32,631 nt of DNA from Pseudomonadota bacterium (lineage in GTDB: Bacteria > Desulfobacterota > Desulfobulbia > Desulfobulbales > SURF-16). Made by a program: the position numbers and the translations under genes. The notes beneath the pieces are model-generated. The model was not told the origin of the DNA and searched no databases. It worked only from the letters and a program-made list of their open reading frames with translations. The stretch is taken from NCBI GenBank assembly GCA_018816555.1, contig JAHIVT010000094.1, forward strand, positions 1 through 32,631, in the 5' to 3' direction. Shown piece by piece: positions 22,871-32,631 of this stretch (positions within the stretch are counted from its first letter, which is position 1; every line of letters starts with the position of its first letter).

Positions 22871-23509
22871 AAAAAGTTCCACTCAAACAATATATTAGAA
22901 AACAAAGATGCAAAAAAAGCCGATCATTCGAACATGCAACTATGGTCATTGCCTGCAAGTGCCGACCGACCGATCATCAACCATACATCGCCCCTCACAC
23001 GAGACGTCATTGCAGCAGACGCAGCGCGTCCTCATCACAACGAGCGTCATTCCGGGCAAACGCAGCGCGACCAGGAATCCAGCCATTTCTTGCGAATGTC
23101 CCTGCAATGTGAACGGAAAATGACATGACAGGACCATCATGATTGCAAACCTAAGGCTGCCGAGAATCAATGGGCCGGCGATTGCTCTATTATAATCCCA
23201 ATATCTGTTGTTGAGAGAAATTATTTTCCGCTCCAGTTTATTTGCCAACAGACTGCGGGAAAATTACTGAACAGAATAGAATGGTCCCACTGTTCGGAGA
23301 TTCCAGGCAAACTGACAATTACAGCGGAAACAGGCAGCAATCATTGGCCTGAATGTGGAAGAATGCTTGCAGTGAGAGGGGAATTAGTGTAAAAAAGGCA
23401 GAAATTTCCACCGGAAATAAGTCACATTACACTCTTATCCGGTGATCGGCAACAGTTGGCACAGCGCCGGCAACACGCCGCTGCGAAAAAGCTGGAAATT
23501 ATCTCAAAA
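22871..23509. other. 639-base gene-free region with short intergenic repeats
   Basis: No credible gene on either strand. Two tandem related units lie at about 22999-23032 and 23040-23072 (ACGAGACGTCATTGCAG...ACGCAGCGCGTCC and ACGAGCGTCATTCCGGG...ACGCAGCGCGACC). The second runs into CCAGGAATCCAG. The right half (23250-23500) is unremarkable sequence leading up to tRNA-Arg, with a small TTTCCACCGGAAA palindrome. Confidence 0.55.
22999..23082. repeat. Two tandem related units of an intergenic repeat
   Basis: Units share ACGAG, CGTCATT and ACGCAGCGCG and are offset by about 41 bases. The second also carries the CATTCCGGG / CCAGGAATCC inverted block seen in the 22031 repeat. Confidence 0.5.
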
Positions 23510-23585
23510 GCCCCCGTAGCTCAGTGGATAGAGCACAGGATTCCTAATCCTGGTGCCGCAGGTCCGATTCCTGCCGGGGGCACCA
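23510..23585 (+). tRNA. tRNA-Arg (anticodon CCT)
   Basis: A complete 76-nt cloverleaf: acceptor GCCCCCG/CGGGGGC, D-arm with AGCTCAGTGGATAGAGC, anticodon stem CAGGA/TCCTG around the loop TTCCTAA, T-arm with GGTCCGATTCC, and an encoded CCA at 23583-23585. It reads AGG codons. The integrase genes lie immediately downstream, so the 3' half is probably the attachment site of the element. Confidence 0.95.
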
Positions 23586-23594
23586 AGCAAATAC

Positions 23595-23637
23595 AGGCCG
23601 AAACCGCTTATACCTAGCGGTTTCGGCCTTTTTATTT
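23595..23637 (+). terminator. Rho-independent terminator after tRNA-Arg
   Basis: A perfect 14-base inverted repeat (23595-23608 and 23616-23629) with a 7-base loop is followed by TTTTTATTTT. It ends the tRNA transcript and separates it from the integrase region. Confidence 0.9.
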
Positions 23638-23697
23638 TCCCTTGATTTTTATCCCTGCTTAGCATAAATTAACAGAAAAGAGCATCATTTTGCAAAA

Positions 23698-23723
23698 AAT
23701 TCCGTCCAAAAATTCCGTCCAAA
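23698..23723 (+). repeat. Exact tandem 13-bp duplication ahead of the arm-domain gene
   Basis: AATTCCGTCCAAA occurs twice, head to tail, between the tRNA-Arg terminator and the ATG at 23729. The position suits integrase arm-type binding sites or an operator for the small DNA-binding protein that follows; that role is inference. Confidence 0.6.
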
Positions 23724-23728
23724 AAATC

Positions 23729-23989
23729 ATGGGTCATATCAAAAAAATTAAACGAAAAAAAGGAACCGTTTATAGGGCTGAAGTTAGGCGCAGAGGCCAC
23801 CAATATACTTCAAAGACATTCAGTAAACTTACTGAGGCAAGAGAGTGGTCCAAGCGAATGGAAAAGATGCTGAAGTTGTTGTCCAATTCATCAAGCGATA
23901 AGAGGGTATCTCTTCTGGAAGACGAGATCGAGCAACTCAAGAAAGAAATTAAGCGGATAAAAGAGGGATCTCCGGAAATCAACAATTAG
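23729..23989 (+). CDS. Stand-alone integrase arm-binding-domain protein with coiled-coil tail
   Basis: From the ATG at 23729 it is 86 aa. Residues 1-47 (MGHIKKIKRKKGTVYRAEVR...TFSKLTEAREWSKRME) closely parallel the first 47 residues of the integrase encoded next (IRTVKRKKGTIYKAEIR...TFDRLSEAQRWVEDTE). This is the N-terminal arm DNA-binding domain of tyrosine recombinases. There is no catalytic domain; instead a heptad-like helix VSLLEDEIEQLKKEIKRIKE follows. It could be an excisionase-like or competing regulator of integration, or a fossil of an older integrase. A TTG at 23690 would add 13 residues encoded by the 13-bp tandem repeat. It ends 14 bases before the integrase. Confidence 0.6.
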   Translation: MGHIKKIKRKKGTVYRAEVRRRGHQYTSKTFSKLTEAREWSKRMEKMLKLLSNSSSDKRVSLLEDEIEQLKKEIKRIKEGSPEINN

Positions 23990-24003
23990 TGTGATCATGT
24001 GTT

Positions 24004-25053
24004 ATGGCCTACATAAGAACCGTTAAGAGAAAAAAAGGAACCATTTACAAGGCTGAAATCAGGCTCCATGGCCACCCTCCCCTTTACCAGACCTTTGACC
24101 GCCTGTCTGAAGCCCAGCGTTGGGTCGAGGATACCGAAGCAACCCTGCGTTCCGGGGGGTACATCGGCGACACTCCGCTGGATGACATGGCCTTCGGCAA
24201 GGCGCTTGACAGATATGAGCTGGAAGTTTCGAGTCAGAAAAGACCCAATACACGATCAAGAGAAATAACCTCAGCCAATACACTGAGAATTTTTTTTGCC
24301 GGCTTGAGCCTCAAAGAAATCACTCCGGCCCGGGTTGCCGCCTTCCGAGATAAACGGCTGAAAACCGTGGGGCCGTCCACCATCCAGAAGGACCTCGCCC
24401 TGCTCTCCCATCTCTTTACCATCGCCAGAACGGAATGGGCAATGGAAGTAAACAACCCGGTTGCCTCCATCAGAAAACCCGCCAAACCTGACGGCAGGTT
24501 GCGCCTGCTAAGCAAAAATGAGGCAAGACACCTGCTGGAAATCTGCAAAAAAAGCCGGAACGGAAAACTCTACCCATATGTACAGCTTCTGCTCCATACT
24601 GGCATGCGGCCATCTGAAGCCGCAGGCCTCATTTGGGGCCAGGTAGATATCGATGCGCGCATTATCGACCTGACCATCACCAAAACCAAACCCCGCCGAG
24701 TTCCTTTAACCATCATGGCTATTGAAATACTACTTCAAATCATGCCGGAACAGTGGGATAAAAGTTTACCGGTTTTCCTCCCGCTAAAAATCTCATCAAC
24801 CATCAGGAGGAGGCCGAATCTGTTTTTTCGCCGTGCTTTCGACAATGCCGTCAAAAAGGCCAAAATCGAGAACTTTCACATGCACGACCTGCGTCATACC
24901 GCAGCCAGCTATTTATTGATGGCCGGAGTAGACCTCCGGACACTGGCGGACATCCTGGGACATTCCACCATGCAGATGGTGCAGCGCTACACCCATCTTC
25001 TGGACGACCACAAACTGAAAGCTGTTGATCGTATCGAAGGGCTTGGCCTCTAA
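24004..25053 (+). CDS. int: Tyrosine recombinase (site-specific integrase)
   Basis: A 349-aa, full-length lambda-family integrase. It has an N-terminal arm-binding domain (1-50), a SAM-like core-binding domain (about 60-155) and a C-terminal catalytic domain. Catalytic residues are all present: R202 (TGMRPSEA), probable K227, H294 and R297 (HDLRH), H320 (LGHS) and Y329 (RYTHL). It should act at the 3' end of the adjacent tRNA-Arg gene. The convergent HU gene ends 8 bases from its stop. It looks functional, so the element may still be mobile. Confidence 0.92.
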   Translation: MAYIRTVKRKKGTIYKAEIRLHGHPPLYQTFDRLSEAQRWVEDTEATLRSGGYIGDTPLDDMAFGKALDRYELEVSSQKRPNTRSREITSANTLRIFFAGLSLKEITPARVAAFRDKRLKTVGPSTIQKDLALLSHLFTIARTEWAMEVNNPVASIRKPAKPDGRLRLLSKNEARHLLEICKKSRNGKLYPYVQLLLHTGMRPSEAAGLIWGQVDIDARIIDLTITKTKPRRVPLTIMAIEILLQIMPEQWDKSLPVFLPLKISSTIRRRPNLFFRRAFDNAVKKAKIENFHMHDLRHTAASYLLMAGVDLRTLADILGHSTMQMVQRYTHLLDDHKLKAVDRIEGLGL

Positions 25054-25061
25054 ACCCTCGG

Positions 25062-25334
25062 TTACTTCAACGAATCAGTGAATTTACTGCCGGCCTTAAA
25101 TTTTACTGCTTTCTTGGCAGGAATCTTGATTTTCTTGCCGGTCTGGGGATTGCGGCCCTCACGGGCGGCCCGTTCGGATACGGAAAATGTCCCGAAACCG
25201 ATAAGGGTTACTTTATCCCCTGCTGCCACGGCATCCTCGATGGCGCCCAAGACGCTGTCCAATGCCTTCTCGGCTGCTGCTTTGCTCAGTTCACAATCTT
25301 TAGCCACTTTTCCTACCAGATCACCTTTATTCAT
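25062..25334 (-). CDS. hup: DNA-binding protein HU (element-encoded copy)
   Basis: A 90-aa HU-family protein. The ATG at 25334 is chosen because GGAGGG lies 6 bases upstream and MNKGDLVGKVA is the family start; a longer frame to 25406 has no similarity. It has the arm signature IGFGTFSVSERAAREGRNPQTG and KIKIPAKKAVKFKAGS. Being beside the integrase, it may help build the recombination complex, as HU or IHF does for other integrases. That is inference. Confidence 0.93.
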   Translation of the reverse strand: MNKGDLVGKVAKDCELSKAAAEKALDSVLGAIEDAVAAGDKVTLIGFGTFSVSERAAREGRNPQTGKKIKIPAKKAVKFKAGSKFTDSLK

Positions 25335-25421
25335 GCGCCCTCCTGTCTGAGTTTGTGAGATGTTTTCATCTGAAAAACCGTACCATTGCTCAGATAGCAA
25401 AACCATGTCGCTCTTGCAAGA

Positions 25422-25772
25422 TTATTCTGCATCTGCTGCTTGGCCCGTTTTCATGAATTCACTGATTTCACGGGGCGTATAATAACGAAACCGTATCCGC
25501 TTGCTGAGTTTGGCCGTGTAGTCGGAAAAGGCCATGACAATTTCCCGGCCTTCCATCATCAACTCTTCGCCCTCCTCGTGTGAGATGCCGTCCATCTCGC
25601 CGAGTCTTGCCTTGAAATGGGCATATGCCATGTCGAACTGGCGCAGGATGTTGAAGAGCGTCGAACCCAGCGGCGAATTTATCTTCAGAACCCGGGAACC
25701 CCGCTCCTTGACCATGTTGATCTTCTTTTCCTGGATCTCCTGCCAGGTCGGTCTGACTTCTTTTTTCTCCAT
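25422..25772 (-). CDS. Hypothetical 116-aa protein of the element
   Basis: Unrecognised. It is a soluble, helical, charged protein beginning MEKKEVRPTWQEIQEKK, with INSPLGSTLFNILRQFDMAYAHFK in the middle and RIRFRYYTPREISEFMKTG near the end. There is no cysteine and no signal. It follows the membrane-protein gene by 20 bases on the same strand and precedes the HU gene, so these probably form one leftward transcript. It may belong to the transfer module, given its position. Confidence 0.6.
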   Translation of the reverse strand: MEKKEVRPTWQEIQEKKINMVKERGSRVLKINSPLGSTLFNILRQFDMAYAHFKARLGEMDGISHEEGEELMMEGREIVMAFSDYTAKLSKRIRFRYYTPREISEFMKTGQAADAE

Positions 25773-25792
25773 CGTCTTTCTCCCTCACGTAG

Positions 25793-26512
25793 TTATGCGG
25801 AAATACGCTTCGCGTTTCTCTTGAGCCGGTGCCGGTGCCACAGGTCCAGGAAATACACTGACCCATACGGAAAAATGGCTGCCACCACCATGAGCATGGC
25901 GCTCTCGCCTGCCACCGGCAGCAGATGCGGCTTGATTTCGAAGAACCCGTAATATATTTTCTCCGCCCTGGACCCACAATGAGTGGCCACCTTCCAGATA
26001 TTTTCCGGCGTGCTGACCCGAAACAGGATGAGATACACCACATAAACCAGAAAGGCCTTGAGCAGCAGGGACATGGCCCGGCCCATGAGCAGCGAGTTGA
26101 TTCCTTTGCGGGTGATGTTGCCGACATAGTAGCGACTGATGTAGCTGCACATTACGGTGTTGATGATCAGGGCGAGATAGGGGATGCCGCCGAACAGGAT
26201 ATGGCTCATGGTATCGAGTCGCTGAAAGACAAAGGGAAAGAGATAGAAATGAAAGACCGGAAAGAGCAGCACCAGGGCCAGCCCCTCGTGAAAGCCGCTT
26301 TTCATGCCGATCTTGAAGAAATCCAGGGTCCGTTCCAGTGTGAGAAATTCAGCCGGGATATTCTGGCCCTTGCTCTCGATCACATAAAATTGCTGGATCT
26401 CTGAGATGGCGCTGAGTAGGTCCTTCGGTTTATAGATCCTGCCATTATCGGTTGTGATGATCTGGGCGTTGGTATCGTTTGCGCTTTTACCGCCGTCCCG
26501 TCCCCGTGCCAT
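25793..26512 (-). CDS. Multi-pass membrane protein of the element
   Basis: A 239-aa protein with a soluble N-terminus (1-70, ITTDNGRIYKPKDLLSAISEIQQFYVIES) and about four membrane spans, near 76-96, 105-125, 143-165 and 203-225. It is unrecognised. The membrane-embedded design and the neighbours fit a part of a conjugative or related transfer apparatus, but no family evidence supports a specific role. A GGGGGAAAA stretch precedes the ATG. The next gene upstream, on the opposite strand, is the Fic gene. Confidence 0.6.
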   Translation of the reverse strand: MARGRDGGKSANDTNAQIITTDNGRIYKPKDLLSAISEIQQFYVIESKGQNIPAEFLTLERTLDFFKIGMKSGFHEGLALVLLFPVFHFYLFPFVFQRLDTMSHILFGGIPYLALIINTVMCSYISRYYVGNITRKGINSLLMGRAMSLLLKAFLVYVVYLILFRVSTPENIWKVATHCGSRAEKIYYGFFEIKPHLLPVAGESAMLMVVAAIFPYGSVYFLDLWHRHRLKRNAKRISA

Positions 26513-26763
26513 TTTTCCCCCTGAACTTGCAGTATTTTTTGAAAAAAATCGTTAATAATCTAAATGCTCTTTCATGCAGGTATGACTGAAGTGCATGAGG
26601 TGCCTCACAGTTTAGGAGGGGATACCACCACTGAATATTTGCAAAAATCGGTATGCGCAAGATAATAAAACTACCGGTTAAGGAGGAAGGTTTGGAGTAA
26701 TTCGGCGGTGTGCAAATTGCGCCACCTAAAGCGGCGCGATATTAATTTACGCCAAAAAGATAA

Positions 26764-26800
26764 TTATTATGGCGCAATTTCAACAATCGCGCCATAATAA
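26764..26800. promoter_or_regulatory. Perfect 12-bp inverted repeat before the Fic gene (probable operator)
   Basis: TTATTATGGCGC (26764-26775) and GCGCCATAATAA (26789-26800) are exact inverse copies separated by 13 bases, ending 6 bases before the Fic ATG. GCGCC cores recur upstream (about 26717-26738). This is the layout of an autoregulatory site for the winged-helix domain encoded by the gene itself. Confidence 0.7.
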
Positions 26801-26806
26801 CATATT

Positions 26807-28201
26807 ATGCCGAAACGTATTTCCCAAAGTGAACTTGATACTATTTTAGAAGCGGTTGCCACTTTCCCAAGAGGCGCCGGAATCGAGGAGATTCAAGGTG
26901 TACTTGGCGGTAAAGTGCCGCGCCGCACCTTGCAACGTCGCTTGGCGCTGCTTGTCGAGCGAAAGCTGTTAATAGTAGATGGTCGAGCCCGGGCAAGCTG
27001 CTATCGCCTGCCGGTTGCCACCGGTGAGCCTTTCGCAATGCGAGATAACCAAAAGATTGCAGGGCGCGAAGAAGTCTACCTTCCAATATCTACGGAAGGA
27101 GAGGCCATCAAACAGTCAGTTCGCCAGCCGATCCAGAACCGTCATCCTGTTGGCTATAATCGGACTTTTCTTGACTCGTATCAACCGAACGACACCTTCT
27201 ATCTTACATCCGAAATTCGGCAGAGACTTCATGAGATGGGGGGCTCAGCGGAAGACCAACGACCGGCTGGGACCTATGCACGGAAAATTTTCAGTCGATT
27301 ATTAATTGATCTCTCCTGGAACTCCAGCCGCCTGGAAGGTAATACCTACTCGTTACTCGAAACCGAGCGGTTACTGGAACAGGGAGAAGCGGCCGAAGGC
27401 AAAGACGCGCTGGAAACGCAAATGGTCCTGAACCACAAAGCCGCCATAGAGCTTTTGGTGGAACAGGCTGACGAGGTAGGATTCAACAGTTACACTATCC
27501 TCAATCTGCATGCCCTGCTGTCAGATAATCTTCTGGCAGATCCACAAGCATGTGGCCGGTTACGAGCAATCCCCGTCGGAATTGGCGGGACGGTTTATCA
27601 TCCTTTGGAAGTGCCGCAACTTATCGACGAATGCTTTCGGCAGATTCTGGCTACGGCAAGCGAGATTGTGAACCCATTTGAACAGGCATTTTTTGTTATG
27701 GTTCACTTGCCATATCTGCAACCATTCGAGGATGTCAATAAGCGTGTCTCGCGGCTCGCTGCAAATATACCACTCATCCGAGGCAATCTCAGCCCCCTGT
27801 CATTCGTGGATGTGCCCGACCGGGCATACATTGACGGGACAGTGGCGGTTTACGAACTGAACCGTGTCGAATTGCTGCGTGATGTCTTTGTCTGGGCCTA
27901 CCAGCGATCATGTGCCCGTTACTCCGCCATCCGGCAGTCTCTTGGCGATCCAGATCCGTTCAAATTGAAATATCGGACCCAGATAAAAGATTTCGTGTCA
28001 GCGGTGGTAAGAGATTGCATGGACAAGCGAACGGCAGTTGGCTGGATAGCCAGGAAGGCTCAGGCAGAAATTCCAGCTTATGATCGCAATCGTTTCATTG
28101 AAATAGTTGAAACAGAGTTGAGCAGTCTGCATGAGGGAAATTTCGCGCGCTACCAGTTGCGACCTGTGCAATTTAAGAATTGGAGACAGAGCTGGCGATA
28201 A
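26807..28201 (+). CDS. Winged-helix Fic-domain protein with degenerate Fic motif
   Basis: A 464-aa protein. Residues 1-70 form a winged-helix DNA-binding domain (VPRRTLQRRLALLVERKLL). A Fic-type domain follows at about 130-330. NSSRLEGN (172-179) is the (S/T)xxxE(G/N) inhibitory helix motif on the N-terminal side. At the expected active site the sequence is LQPFEDVNKRVSR (304-316) where active Fic enzymes have HPFxxGNGR. The catalytic histidine is Gln305 and the motif glycine is Val310. AMP transfer is therefore doubtful, and the protein may act mainly as a regulator or use another chemistry. It lies alone on the plus strand between leftward element genes, with a perfect palindrome at its start. 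Confidence 0.85.
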   Translation: MPKRISQSELDTILEAVATFPRGAGIEEIQGVLGGKVPRRTLQRRLALLVERKLLIVDGRARASCYRLPVATGEPFAMRDNQKIAGREEVYLPISTEGEAIKQSVRQPIQNRHPVGYNRTFLDSYQPNDTFYLTSEIRQRLHEMGGSAEDQRPAGTYARKIFSRLLIDLSWNSSRLEGNTYSLLETERLLEQGEAAEGKDALETQMVLNHKAAIELLVEQADEVGFNSYTILNLHALLSDNLLADPQACGRLRAIPVGIGGTVYHPLEVPQLIDECFRQILATASEIVNPFEQAFFVMVHLPYLQPFEDVNKRVSRLAANIPLIRGNLSPLSFVDVPDRAYIDGTVAVYELNRVELLRDVFVWAYQRSCARYSAIRQSLGDPDPFKLKYRTQIKDFVSAVVRDCMDKRTAVGWIARKAQAEIPAYDRNRFIEIVETELSSLHEGNFARYQLRPVQFKNWRQSWR

Positions 28202-28246
28202 AAAACGAGTCACCTCAAGAACAAGCCAGGACTCAAGGCAATCTCT

Positions 28247-29749
28247 CTATAACGGACTCAGGACGGATCCTTCATTGCCGAGAAACGGTTCGACTTTCTG
28301 GATATTGCGCAGCGTTTCGGATTTCCTCTGCTCCATCTCGGCAATGGAGCCGAAGGCCTCGGCGTGGAACGGGGTGTAATAGCCCTTGACGCTCTTGCCG
28401 ATTTTTTTGGTGACGGTAAAATATCCGCCAAAGAAATTGTCCTTGATCAGGCCCCTGGCGATCACGTCATGTTCACCACGGAGGTGATGGACAATGGTGA
28501 ACAACACCTGCCGCATGGTCGGATCGTTCTGGGCCATGGCGGCAATATCCATGCATCCTGCCCGCTCCGCCTGCTTTCTGGCCACTTCCTCAAGCACCTT
28601 GACCTGAAAATAGACAATGCCGTCCGCCATGGAAAAGCCCAGGAACCTGCGTCCGAACATCTTGTTGATGAATGGTTTCAGCTCAGCCAGAAAGAGGGCG
28701 GCATCGAACCAGGCCGAGATATCCAGCAGTTTAGGGACTTCGGGGGCATCCTTTCCCTGTCCGGCAACGCAACTCTCACCAAATATATCCGCCTGGGCCT
28801 GCCAGGCCGCAGCTGCTTTATCCGTAGTGACCTGTCGGGCTGGTTCTGGTGCGGAAGAGGCCGTTACAGCTTTATCATTTCCCGCATCTTGCTGCTGGGC
28901 CAATGCCTCAGAACTTTTTTGCGGGATTGATTCCGTGATGCTTTCCTGCTGGTCAACAACTTCTTCCAGCTCTTTTTGTCTGGCGAGCTGGTCGGCCTTT
29001 TTGAGCGTTTTGCCGAGCAACCCTTCGGGCATCTTGTGGTGCAGCTTGATGGCTCGCAGGATTTCTTCCTTCTTGGCCAGATCCTTGAAGCCGACTATCC
29101 CGGCCAAAGGTCGGCCCGCGGCCAGGGGATGCTCACCCAGGGAATAGAGATAGCCGCGCATGGATTCGAGTTTCCCCAGGTCATGGGCCAGGGCGGCCAC
29201 CATGGTGTCGGGGATCACATGCCAGGCCTCGCTGGCCGAGAGCAGCCGCACCACCTGTTCGGCCACGTTCAGGGAGTGCTCAAGCAGGGTCGTTTTGGCT
29301 AGGATCCGGTAGGTGTTTTCATCCCAGCTTCCCTCCACATCGCCGCTCATATTGACCACGGACGGGCAATTGCCTTCCCGGTCGAGCATCTGCAGGATCC
29401 GGCCACACACCGCCTTGTGCAGGGGGAATTTCGCAAACCAGGCCCACTGCCTGATATTCTCCATGAAGGCCGCAGCCCGTGGATGGTGAAGATCAAGGGA
29501 TTCCTCTTGCACGGCGATGAGCTGGTCATCCCGCCACAGGGGAGCAAGTTCCGAGATATGGATTGTCTTGGAGCCCTCCTTGGTCCACAGGGCCGACAGA
29601 TCGCGCAGTGAGATCTCCCGTACCACTGGTTCCTTTTTCCTGCCACCTGCCAACACGACAATCGCAACCAACGCCAGCAATCCCGACACCCCGATCAACA
29701 GGCGGCTCCAGGTGATCGCCGCCAGCCAGTGCTCAAGCCCATGCATCAA
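28247..29749 (-). CDS. Membrane-anchored HD-domain protein, TraI/MobH-like
   Basis: A 500-aa protein. One membrane anchor (about 16-35) is followed by a cytoplasmic part with an HD phosphohydrolase-type domain: H158 (LLEHSL), H189-D190 (ALAHDLGK), H207, H237-H238 (KLHHKMPEG) and D253. A low-complexity linker (about 265-330) leads to a C-terminal domain (FINKMFGRRFLGFSMADGIVYFQ..). The arrangement resembles the TraI_2/MobH group of integrative elements, where the HD domain belongs to the relaxase. Whether it nicks DNA cannot be told. It overlaps the ATPase gene by 4 bases (ATGA) and is the last gene of the operon. Confidence 0.7.
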   Translation of the reverse strand: MMHGLEHWLAAITWSRLLIGVSGLLALVAIVVLAGGRKKEPVVREISLRDLSALWTKEGSKTIHISELAPLWRDDQLIAVQEESLDLHHPRAAAFMENIRQWAWFAKFPLHKAVCGRILQMLDREGNCPSVVNMSGDVEGSWDENTYRILAKTTLLEHSLNVAEQVVRLLSASEAWHVIPDTMVAALAHDLGKLESMRGYLYSLGEHPLAAGRPLAGIVGFKDLAKKEEILRAIKLHHKMPEGLLGKTLKKADQLARQKELEEVVDQQESITESIPQKSSEALAQQQDAGNDKAVTASSAPEPARQVTTDKAAAAWQAQADIFGESCVAGQGKDAPEVPKLLDISAWFDAALFLAELKPFINKMFGRRFLGFSMADGIVYFQVKVLEEVARKQAERAGCMDIAAMAQNDPTMRQVLFTIVHHLRGEHDVIARGLIKDNFFGGYFTVTKKIGKSVKGYYTPFHAEAFGSIAEMEQRKSETLRNIQKVEPFLGNEGSVLSPL

Positions 29750-31113
29750 CGACCACCGGCACCCGGATACGTCCCGGCCATCTTCTCCAAGGCCAGATCC
29801 GGGAACCTCACCTTGAGCGCCCCTTCGCTTACGGTGGCGGTCTTTCCCTTGTAGGTGCCGGAATAGGTGTTCAGGAACAGTTCACGGGGCGCCATGTTCA
29901 ACACCTCGGTGTGCTTGATCCTGACCTCTTCGGTCTCCCGGATCGACAGGCCGCCGCCCAGTGAGATGATCGGCGAGAAACGGCGCTCCTCGCCGAGATG
30001 CTCGGAGACGTAGCTGGCCGTGGTGGCATCCGGCACCCGCATGAAGAGTTTGGTGTTGCAATTGTCGAGGATGGTGTTGGCCCGGTCATCGCCCACCTCG
30101 GCATACAACTGGCTGATGGACTGGCAGTAACCGTGGATGAAGACTCCGGCCCCGCCGGCCTTGGCGAACAGATCCTCGATGCCCTGGTACAAGACCGACT
30201 GGGCCTCGTCGATGTGCAGGACCAGCGAGGGAGTGACATTTCTGCCGCTGGAATAGACCCGGCCGACAAAGGCCTGGATCATGGAGATAATGACCTTGCC
30301 CGCCGTGTAGGCGGCCCGCTTGGTAAGTAATGATCCAAGCTGCACCACCAGGATGATACCCTTGCCCAGCTCAAGGCGCTTGATGAAACGGTTTTCATCC
30401 GCCTTGCCGATAATCTTGCCGACATTGCCCGAGGTCAATTCAGTAAGCGCCACCCGGAGCGAGCTGGCCACCTTGGAGTAATAATCCGCCGGGGTGGAGA
30501 GGATCTTCTGGATATCCCGGGAAAGCTGCTCCGCCTCCGGGGTGTTGATATAATCGATTTTTTCCTTGAGCTTTTCAAGGTCCTGATGGCTGATATGGTT
30601 CTTGATGTCATTAAGATTAAACGATGGCGTCGTGCCGGCCACCTCGGCCAGCATAATCAGGGCCTGGACCACGACCAGACTCACCTCATAGGCCACCCCG
30701 AAGAAATACGGCTCCCGGCCCACCGCTACCCCGGCGGTGATATGGCCCACCAGCTCTTCCGGCATGTAGTACGAGGAGAGGGGATCAAGGATGGCGCTGT
30801 ACTGCGGGAAGATGGGTGTAACCAGCATCAGATCGTGATGGCGGCCGGTGTCTATGGCGAGCTGGGTGATTTTTGAAAACAGGTCAATATCGCCTTTGGG
30901 GTCGATGGCCACCACGGAATAGCCCTTGCGGATGTCCTGTTCAATGATGTGCTCCATGACCCTGGTCTTGCCCACCCGGGTGGTGCCGAAACACCAGAAA
31001 TGGCCCTTCCGGTAACTGTCCGGAAAGCCCAGATCCAGAACTGTATGGGGATAATCGAGATGGACCCCGGTGCCGATATGGGTCCAGGGTTCTTTTGCTT
31101 TGCGTTTGGCCAT
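29746..31113 (-). CDS. VirD4/TraG/TraD-type ATPase (coupling protein)
   Basis: A 455-aa P-loop ATPase. Walker A is GTTRVGKT (43-50), followed by VVAIDPKGDIDLF. Walker B is LVLHIDEAQSVL in the second half. The C-terminal part has HGYCQSISQLYAEVGDDRANTILDNCNTKLFMRV, the TraG/TraD signature of enzymes that feed DNA into a secretion channel. It lacks the usual N-terminal membrane spans. The HD protein made next does have a membrane anchor and could supply it. Both ends overlap neighbours (TAATG upstream, ATGA downstream). Confidence 0.85.
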   Translation of the reverse strand: MAKRKAKEPWTHIGTGVHLDYPHTVLDLGFPDSYRKGHFWCFGTTRVGKTRVMEHIIEQDIRKGYSVVAIDPKGDIDLFSKITQLAIDTGRHHDLMLVTPIFPQYSAILDPLSSYYMPEELVGHITAGVAVGREPYFFGVAYEVSLVVVQALIMLAEVAGTTPSFNLNDIKNHISHQDLEKLKEKIDYINTPEAEQLSRDIQKILSTPADYYSKVASSLRVALTELTSGNVGKIIGKADENRFIKRLELGKGIILVVQLGSLLTKRAAYTAGKVIISMIQAFVGRVYSSGRNVTPSLVLHIDEAQSVLYQGIEDLFAKAGGAGVFIHGYCQSISQLYAEVGDDRANTILDNCNTKLFMRVPDATTASYVSEHLGEERRFSPIISLGGGLSIRETEEVRIKHTEVLNMAPRELFLNTYSGTYKGKTATVSEGALKVRFPDLALEKMAGTYPGAGGR

Positions 31114-31859
31114 TATTCGCCGGGCATGGACTTGACAATATTTACCTGGATCCGCTCTTTCAGTTCCCGGTCCACCGCGATGATCGCTGACTTCGGCAGA
31201 CGACCGGTACTGAAAACGATACTCTTATGTCCCACATAACGTTTGAGGCAGTGGATCTTGACCTTTTCCGCATCAGGCCCAAGCTGACTGCGAAGCAGGG
31301 TTTCGACCAGGGTCTTGGACACCCGGTCCACCACCACCTTGAGACGTGGGGTGCCGTTCAGCAAAACCGGCTCCACCCGGCGCAGATGAAAGGCCCGTTT
31401 CCGGCCGATGGCGAAATCACCTGAGTGCCGCTCATGCAGCCCGATCCGGTTTACGGGACAGATTGCCGTCAGCCGTTCACCGGCAATGACCTCGGTTTCG
31501 ACATAGAGATTCTGCTCGGCATCGCAGGCGGTTATCTCGCCCCACAACAGCTCTTTCTCAAAGTATTTATAGCGGGCGGTCTGCTTGAGCACCGCTGCCT
31601 TGGCCAGATTCGTCTCAAGCTGCCTCTTGAGCGTCCCCCGGCCTTTGATCTCCGATAGTTCGACGAGGCGCTGCATGACCACCCCGCCTGATTGGTTGTA
31701 GGCCACGGCCTCCAGCCGCAGATCATCACGGAAAAAGACCATCACCGGAAGTCGATACCATTGGGAGAGCCGGAGGGCAAATAGGGCCTCGATCTCCGCC
31801 ATGACCTCGGCCTTGGTGAGTGCGTATTCGATTGTAAATGAGGCTATGATTTCCTGCAT
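31113..31859 (-). CDS. Possible NusA-like protein (NTD-S1-KH1 layout) of the element
   Basis: A 248-aa protein, first gene of the operon. Its layout parallels the first half of NusA: an N-terminal domain (about 10-55, ALTKAEVMAEIEALFALRLSQ), a long helix (75-100), an S1-like barrel (about 103-165, ELLWGEITACD...VNRIGLHERHSGDFAIGRK), then RRVEPVLLNGTPRLKVVVDR like NusA's S1-to-KH joint, and VEKVKIHCL-type KH1 strands with FSTGRLPKSA where NusA has its GxxG loop. The second KH domain and acidic tails are absent. The resemblance is by eye only. If true it suggests an element-specific antitermination or RNA-binding factor. An alternative is an unrelated ICE protein. Confidence 0.5.
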   Translation of the reverse strand: MQEIIASFTIEYALTKAEVMAEIEALFALRLSQWYRLPVMVFFRDDLRLEAVAYNQSGGVVMQRLVELSEIKGRGTLKRQLETNLAKAAVLKQTARYKYFEKELLWGEITACDAEQNLYVETEVIAGERLTAICPVNRIGLHERHSGDFAIGRKRAFHLRRVEPVLLNGTPRLKVVVDRVSKTLVETLLRSQLGPDAEKVKIHCLKRYVGHKSIVFSTGRLPKSAIIAVDRELKERIQVNIVKSMPGE

Positions 31860-32066
31860 AATGTTGTTATTCAGGTGTCCAGTATCAAAAAAGGAGAATT
31901 CTTTAGGTCTATATGCTCTTTTCTATGGGGGGGACTTTCTTATAATGGCGAGTTTCCCGCTTTTCTATGATTTCGTGTCTTGGCGGAGAAAATGATGTAA
32001 TTACAAGATGAAAGTTGTAAATTACGGAGTAAGAATAGTTTGGAAATATCGTGACTTTTTTCAAGA
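31860..32066. promoter_or_regulatory. AT-rich divergent promoter region
   Basis: About 207 AT-rich bases between the leftward three-gene operon and the rightward kinase-like gene. It should hold both promoters. No distinct -35/-10 pair or operator could be fixed by eye. A 23-codon ORF at 32008 (MKVVNYGVRIVWKYRD) is not convincing. Confidence 0.4.
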
Positions 32067-32258
32067 ATGGATATGTTGACTTTTTGGGACCATAAAGTTG
32101 TTAGAATTGGTAGTTGGAAGAAATCACTCAATGCGGAATTTTCACTTAACTATCTGTCCAAATTCTCCAGACCGGCTCGGTTAACACAATTGATCCTGCG
32201 AATCGAGTTGAAAGATGCTCTCACATTGAAAAGCGGAAAAATAATCAACAATGAGTAA
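32067..32258 (+). CDS. Small ORF overlapping the kinase-like gene
   Basis: 63 codons (MDMLTFWDHKVVRIGSW...), basic and unrecognised. The main support is that its stop (TAA at 32256-32258) overlaps the ATG of the kinase-like gene at 32251, which suggests coupled translation. No strong ribosome site precedes it, and base composition is AT-rich like the surrounding region. It may be a small partner protein or just an upstream leader ORF. Confidence 0.4.
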   Translation: MDMLTFWDHKVVRIGSWKKSLNAEFSLNYLSKFSRPARLTQLILRIELKDALTLKSGKIINNE

Positions 32259-32631
32259 GAATTACCTTGGGCGATTGCCGGAGAACGACCCTTTGCACGG
32301 TTATCTTCAGTATGATATCCAGCCATTGATTAACGGCTCGACAGGCCATGCGACATACCGGGTTTTCGGGCTACATGGATCTAATGATGTTTACCTGTAT
32401 GAGGACAGACACACCGGGGTGAAGGTCGTTGGCAAGTTCTTTCTTTCGTCGCGGAAATGGGACTCGAAGAAGGCTTTCTCGCGCTTGACGAGCGAATTCA
32501 ACAATCTCTGCCTTATGCGTGATTACGGGATGGAGGGCTATCCTCACCACGTTGTCAGACCGTTGGGGCGCAACTATTCGCTGAGCGCCCTATTGGTCAC
32601 TGAATATTGCGAAGGCGAACTGCTCAGTGAA
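32251..32631 (+). CDS. Protein-kinase-like gene, 5' part (cut by window end)
   Basis: 127 codons are present and the gene runs off the window. The sequence fits the N-lobe of a protein-kinase or phosphotransferase fold: VYLYEDRHTGVKVVGKFF with a candidate ATP-binding lysine at K62, a helix with E82 (RLTSEFNNLCLM), then VRPLGRNYSLSALLVTEYCEGELL resembling the strand and hinge (TEYCEG at 117-122). The catalytic loop and metal site would lie beyond the window, so activity cannot be judged. It is cargo next to the transfer-type operon and could be part of a defence or signalling system; that is inference. Confidence 0.6.
   Translation, partial: MSKNYLGRLPENDPLHGYLQYDIQPLINGSTGHATYRVFGLHGSNDVYLYEDRHTGVKVVGKFFLSSRKWDSKKAFSRLTSEFNNLCLMRDYGMEGYPHHVVRPLGRNYSLSALLVTEYCEGELLSE

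Follow-up and report, generated by a model that had tools for sequence, protein, structure and literature searches.

The contig JAHIVT010000094.1 (GenBank assembly GCA_018816555.1), from a Desulfobacterota bacterium of the SURF-16 lineage, was analysed over its whole 32,631 nucleotides (the window) and contains a compact operon of three minus-strand genes, referred to as A, B and C, at positions 28247–31859; D and E denote module genes beyond C. Gene A (31113–31859, minus strand) encodes a predicted NusA paralogue of 248 residues, made up of an N-terminal domain (NTD), an S1 domain and part of a KH1 domain, without GxxG and without KH2. Gene B (29746–31113, minus strand) encodes a 455-residue coupling ATPase of the TraD/VirD4 type that lacks the N-terminal membrane region. 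Gene C (28247–29749, minus strand) encodes a candidate relaxase, 500 residues long from TTG 29749 or 499 from ATG 29746, which consists of an N-terminal anchor, an HD domain, a low-confidence linker and a C-terminal domain. The three open reading frames (ORFs) lie where a sequence-only reading of this DNA had placed them. Of the tight overlaps described in that reading, TAATG is present at the A/B junction, where the end of A overlaps the start of B, whereas B/C reads TTGATG and not ATGA, so that B, ending in the stop codon TGA, overlaps an ATG start by one base or a TTG start by four. Among relatives, 36 of 49 A-B junctions and 43 of 59 B-C junctions have the closest start at a gap of −4 or −1, counts biased towards overlap since the start codon closest to each stop was the one taken.

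The operon is real and conserved, and its linkage exceeds chance. A scan of genome contigs with B gave 78 loci, from the best 80 stretches, mostly in Desulfobulbaceae and frequently two or three in one genome; the others belong to records titled Nitrospirae, Syntrophaceae, Campylobacterales and Thermodesulfobacterium, with a few metagenome-assembled genomes whose titles appear mis-binned. When A and C were scored with profiles made from these same loci, A was found upstream of B in 66/71 loci with room (absent from L066, L070, L071, L073 and L078) and C downstream in 71 of the 74 (absent from L066, L078 and L081). All three genes occur together in 62 of the 67 loci in which both flanks are visible; the opposite result, genes lying apart in most relatives, is what the sequence-only reading had named as counting against it.

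Gene A has no Pfam family match, no family matches more than one of its 41 relatives, and none of these 41 members is matched by the NusA_N profile. A profile of the relatives, searched against PDB sequences, ranked ten NusA chains at the top (E 0.0027 to 0.36), and its hhalign comparison with 14 host-type NusA proteins gave a probability of 92 and E 5.9e-7, unrelated profile pairs giving E 0.08–0.85. The AlphaFold2 model (predicted local distance difference test, pLDDT, 93.2; predicted template modelling score, pTM, 0.81) matches NusA over its full length, and the predicted fold has the order NTD-S1-KH1 as in NusA. Foldseek returned 12 matches at E<=1e-3, the best 11 of which are NusA by title, length or PDB profile search (best E 2.0e-14), while the twelfth, chain 6xav_G (E 2.2e-4), was not counted as NusA. 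VIA aligned the model with 4mtn (Z 16.0, root-mean-square deviation (rmsd) 4.1, 226 residues aligned) and 1hh2 (Z 13.5), the first row other than NusA being a ribosomal S1 chain (Z 10.0, 83 aligned).

Profile and predicted fold together bear out the suggestion that the first protein resembles half of NusA, retaining the NTD, S1 and the first part of KH1, and the fold match is strong where its absence would have spoken against the proposal. The alignments with NusA start at residue 1, so the RNA-polymerase-binding NTD is kept in the fold. Across 247 genomes of the phylum, the strong matches of the A profile were two, both in this genome; four other genomes gave clear ones, and the seven weak matches (E 4e-5 to 8e-4) correspond to host NusA genes. 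This genome has a separate host NusA gene on contig C86, and A is, as judged from its modelled structure, a NusA paralogue.

Gene B matches TraG-D_C above the cut-off (8.8e-17), with the nucleotide-binding domain present, and the SXT_TraD model TIGR03743 at E 2.4e-51, at 175 bits compared with the curated cut-off of 366 bits, which it misses. The full TraG/TraD motifs read earlier from the sequence are borne out by these matches, which identify B as a TraD-type coupling ATPase. As to the accompanying claim that it has no membrane span, the TIGR03743 alignment begins at profile position 167 of 636, from which it follows that the N-terminal membrane region is missing. A hydropathy scan, crude in kind, nevertheless marks a single hydrophobic stretch within the ATPase body (residues 136–162), and it marks one in 47 of 54 relatives. 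Because the same scan found N-terminal segments in just one of four known TraD proteins, the absence of a membrane span is argued from the missing N-terminal region and not from hydropathy.

Gene C matches Pfam HD (3.8e-6), as do 44/44 family members, and has one N-terminal membrane segment at residues 9–38 that recurs in 55 of 57 relatives, in agreement with the HD protein with a single anchor described before. H189, D190, K193, H207, H237, H238, A252 and D253 are invariant in all 44 rows and in 7/7 plasmid homologues, and H158 is present in 43 of the rows and in all seven homologues. C is an HD metal enzyme that is anchored in the membrane and whose site is invariant. Its model (mean pLDDT 80.7) consists of the anchor, the HD domain, the linker (about residues 290–334) and the C-terminal domain. 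The nearest fold found by VIA is the nuclease YhaM (Z 15.9, rmsd 4.5, 170 aligned), in a list that is taken up by the HD domain and does not cover the fold of the C-terminal domain; Foldseek gave no match to the model at E<=0.001.

C adjoins the coupling gene, as mobH and traD adjoin each other in several plasmids, and TraI/MobH-like features had been proposed for it. What stands of that proposal is an HD enzyme in the position of the MobH relaxase; the 3H motif and a TraI_2 match, on the other hand, are absent. The HD domain of C matches that of ICE-type MobH (ICE, integrative and conjugative element) at E 9.9e-9, compared with 7.6e-6 and 7e-6 for the two best host HD groups and 6e-6 for the best single host HD protein tried, a modest difference that offers a lead towards MobH. 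A number of results weigh against this kinship and against a relaxase role. A full-length, more divergent MobH alignment gave no significant profile match with C, MobH scored below several host HD proteins in a plain hidden Markov model (HMM) search, and sequence profiles of the C-terminal domains of C and MobH did not match (E 0.57). The 3H motif (PASExHHH), required by MOBH (PMC12857230), was found by a loose pattern in 15/15 distinct MobH proteins fetched and aligned and is absent from C, HHH strings occurring in only three of the 44 rows and at the later HH pair. The TraI_2 profile (PF07514) matches none of the 44 members. C was rejected as a member of MobH on the missing 3H motif and TraI_2 profile, and the likeness of the HD domains is kept as a lead.

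Homologues of C are found in seven plasmid records; in MOB-suite typing six of these are non-mobilizable and one, from Aliarcobacter, is MOBV. The label non-mobilizable is also given to four plasmids on which mobH is annotated, which makes the silence of MOB-suite on the C plasmids weak evidence. Gene A is present on five of the seven, directly before B on the Geobacter and Pelobacter plasmids (137 and 120 bits) and one or two genes further upstream on those of Nitrosophilus, C. iguaniorum and C. upsaliensis (45, 37 and 33 bits), in matches scored over only 13 proteins. It was not seen on the Desulfosarcina and Aliarcobacter plasmids among the two and one upstream genes tested, respectively, and none of these plasmid proteins matched the NusA HMM alone (E 0.13 or worse). 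Over the whole of plasmid pCIG1485E an F-type type IV secretion system (T4SS) is present and no feature is annotated as a relaxase, though many features are hypothetical. On two Campylobacterota plasmids (L143:17755-18336; L229:2581-3141) an extra gene for an HD-domain phosphohydrolase lies directly before B, with A two genes further upstream.

Known relaxase families were sought in the genomes that carry the operon. In a closed Desulfopila genome with two operon copies, PF03432 and PF08751 were unmatched and the sole TraI_2 match covers 28 positions at 20 bits. Among ten genomes, PF03432 matched in two and TrwC in two, the latter below the TrwC cut-off; the PF03432 match of the present genome sits on contig C137, which has TrwB-type matches of its own. 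TraI_2 matched seven of eight element-bearing genomes, four above the cut-off after neighbouring pieces were added, through just 28–56 profile positions in frames of 341–363 residues, and not at the operon among the matches listed. TraI_2_C (PF07515) matched none of 247 genomes and no control genome either, so that this result shows no absence. Contig C137 (G000:C137), with TrwB-type coupling matches and a PF03432 relaxase together, represents a different element.

The operon lies beside an integration site. A tRNA-Arg(CCT) gene at 23510–23585 on the plus strand (ARAGORN / Rfam) is followed on the same strand by a tyrosine integrase gene at 24004–25053 (Pfam Phage_integrase, 1.5e-30), and a 46-bp attachment repeat at 23541–23586, also on the plus strand, corresponds to the end sequence of the tRNA. 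The repeat recurs on another contig of this genome (G000:C153:15450-15495), where ARAGORN calls no tRNA. On the element side of this second copy lie T4SS genes and relatives of a TrfA-type replication protein and of a weakly sigma-like protein, the last two names being carried over from G001 relatives. T4SS genes on C153, on the other contigs of this genome and on the closed chromosome were named by eye, as were HU and SSB, and TraH was named by HMM. Contigs C147 and C38 carry further T4SS genes, TraH being divided between the two; a second set is on C162 and a second A-B-C copy on C69, giving two operon copies and two T4SS copies in this genome. TraH (PF06122) was found in 15 of 16 operon-carrying genomes, the exception being G008, with L017 outside the count. 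On the closed Desulfopila chromosome the A-B-C copies lie about 33 kb and about 47 kb from a TraH gene, and the second region contains, as assessed by eye and from clusters, a complete-looking F-type T4SS, a cargo island, recombination genes and A-B-C-D-E.

The operon thus belongs, on the evidence of gene content and attachment sequence, to an ICE that has integrated in tRNA-Arg(CCT), carries an F-type T4SS and is predicted to excise and transfer. Based on the repeat and the Desulfopila gene order, the window and contigs C153, C147 and C38 are inferred to be one element; against this, the assembly leaves these contigs physically separate. No direct repeats of at least 18 bp and more than 30 kb apart were found around two G001 elements, leaving the ends of those elements undefined. 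The sequence-only reading had taken a known ICE family as an alternative to NusA kinship, and the operon does lie in an ICE, yet A keeps its match to the NusA fold. Its suggestion of a reduced transfer system or minimal unit, taken to lack a T4SS of its own and consistent with the window itself having no T4SS gene, is highly improbable and was rejected, since the second attachment repeat adjoins T4SS genes at the other end of the element and the copies of T4SS and operon agree two and two in this genome. A 99-residue ORF at 23690–23989, before the integrase gene, looks by eye like the N-terminal portion of related integrases, and the integrase may be split. At G001:C1:4324591-4351695 a cargo island of large genes, defence-island-like by eye, lies between T4SS and recombination genes.

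Gene D (25793–26512, minus strand) encodes a 239-residue membrane protein and gene E (25422–25772, minus strand) a 116-residue protein without a family; they follow C in 26 and 25, respectively, of the 35 loci that extend 5 kb or more past C, with typical sizes of about 238 and about 120 residues in relatives. A, B and C, with D and E, probably form the DNA-processing and coupling module of the ICE. In the proposed sequence of events, the integrase would excise the element, and C, as an HD metal enzyme at the membrane, would nick or process the transfer strand. B would feed this strand into the F-type T4SS for export and could possibly dock on the membrane through C or D, a link suggested by the missing N-terminal region of B and by the anchor of C. 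A, made together with B and C, would act in elongation or antitermination while riding on RNA polymerase and/or the nascent transcript.

The catalytic role of C has two competing readings. C may well be an unrecognised relaxase, a tentative assignment favoured by its place after the coupling gene in nearly all loci with room, by its invariant HD site and by a scan of 13 distinct core proteins of one element (ten with Pfam, ten with NCBIfam, seven in both) in which no relaxase family was found, cargo proteins lying outside the scan. It is also a serious possibility that C is an accessory nuclease or signalling phosphodiesterase and that another element protein nicks the DNA, as C has no 3H motif and comes closest in fold to the exonuclease YhaM; a number of core proteins lack a family, and one of these could be the relaxase instead of C. 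For A, the favoured though uncertain reading is a factor specific to the element that promotes elongation or antitermination at the transfer genes, bound to RNA polymerase and/or the nascent transcript, since it retains the NTD fold of NusA and since the antitermination systems known from transfer operons stand first in the operon or sit within pilus operons. Several features speak against it. The GxxG loop belongs to the KH domain, and G-x-K/R-G, found in 14/14 NusA rows, has no counterpart in A, where GxxG beyond residue 200 occurs in none of the 41 rows; KH2 is absent as well, the protein stopping inside KH1, and these losses imply reduced canonical NusA RNA binding. Moreover, A is linked to the coupling genes and not to the T4SS operon.

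These features would suit a protein that is no longer a transcription factor and whose S1/KH fold serves as an adaptor for single-stranded DNA or RNA in the relaxosome or coupling complex, passing substrate to B. The tight linkage of A to B and C, also on five of seven plasmids from other groups, with T4SS genes elsewhere in the element, and the loss of GxxG and KH2 speak for this reading; the retained RNA-polymerase-binding NTD argues against it, and it appears rather unlikely. A defence function was also considered. PADLOC matched B to mad8 (5.8e-14) and C to Cas3-HD (4.6e-5), which would point to a system of the MADS kind, MADS being the gene set mad1-mad8. TraD models fit B far better, however, B alone of six window proteins scanned matched any mad model, and D and E follow in most loci with room; with one matching protein, a MADS defence system was rejected, its probability being close to negligible. 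The reading of A-B-C-D-E as a DNA-processing and coupling module is preferred.

An HU-like gene, named by eye, lies at 25062–25406 on the minus strand and recurs near E. A Fic-domain gene at 26807–28201 on the plus strand (Pfam Fic, 4.2e-9) lies between C and D and is regarded as cargo outside the module; in the C69 copy (L120) other genes follow C. D was tried as DUF4400, suggested by synteny with MobH plasmids, and rejected for want of a profile match. Of the 35 loci that reach 5 kb or further past C, 11 have an integrase within 9 kb, with a tRNA 100–450 bases past the integrase in ten of the 11 and none called in L008. Upstream of A there is variable cargo, and in many loci a divergent set that comprises a RecE/Cas4-like exonuclease, SSB (by eye), DUF6094, RadC, an SNF2-type helicase and DUF932. 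In the window, 32251–32631 holds the start of a cargo gene cut by the contig end, kinase-like by eye and with no Pfam match.

Upstream of the divergent recombination genes a conserved noncoding element of 79 nucleotides was observed (L045:9120-9197, L044:9039-9117, L048:9029-9105, L075:9037-9114, L083:9085-9163, L033:3318-3392), with an inverted repeat that, by eye, varies on both arms (ACTTAA/TTAAGT, ACTTGA/TCAAGT). The element may serve as an operator or an origin of transfer (oriT), and it was not found in the window. Inverted repeats of at least 8 bases that might mark an oriT upstream of A are found in neither the window copy nor the C69 copy, and the tRNA is the sole Rfam match over 23400–32631.

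Among the literature matches listed, which cover few subscription papers, there is no report of a NusA paralogue with a conjugative element or coupling protein, nor, among those listed, of this system under plasmid names or under Desulfobulb-, ICE or relaxase terms. A NusA relative is an unexpected partner for DNA-transfer machinery, and a NusA paralogue locked to a coupling protein would tie the transcription-elongation machinery to conjugation, making testable how a conjugative element links gene expression to the processing of its own DNA. A relaxase role for C would mean that some elements at present typed as non-mobilizable can transmit themselves. It is doubtful, though conceivable, that the operon represents a new class of conjugative DNA-processing module, in which a family of HD relaxases lacks the 3H motif, the TraD motor has no N-terminal membrane domain of its own, and transcription, or RNA polymerase bound to the transcript, is coupled to DNA transfer by a NusA paralogue. 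Such a class would be spread over Desulfobacterota, Nitrospirota and Campylobacterota and would escape relaxase typing as it is now done.

The closest known parallels to the operon are MOBH-type elements, which include the SXT/R391-like ICEs, IncHI and IncC plasmids and the gonococcal genetic island, and which likewise place a TraD-type coupling protein beside an HD-domain protein and have an F-type T4SS. The MOBH architecture comprises an HD domain, a disordered middle and a globular C-terminal domain (PMC12857230). The gene order differs, being mobH-traD in MOBH elements whereas the coupling gene precedes the HD gene here, and in contrast to those elements the operon has no 3H motif, no TraI_2 match and no N-terminal membrane region in its coupling protein, and adds a NusA paralogue. 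The plasmids pPRO1 (Pelobacter propionicus) and pSD (Geobacter anodireducens) share the A-B-C order and are typed as MPF_F with no typed relaxase; they differ in being plasmids, in a C protein that is 22–27% identical and in a lytic transglycosylase gene before A.

Gene A shares with cellular NusA the NTD-S1-KH1 fold in the same order, but is only 248 residues long, has neither GxxG, KH2 nor a NusA_N match, and is encoded on a mobile element beside the host NusA. The NusG paralogue ActX and ConAn of pLS20 offer a functional parallel, as elongation-type factors inside transfer or pilus operons: conAn heads its transfer operon (PMC8955417) and ActX lies within pilus operons, its function being unknown (PMC7819879). 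Neither is a NusA paralogue, and antitermination by A is a predicted role.

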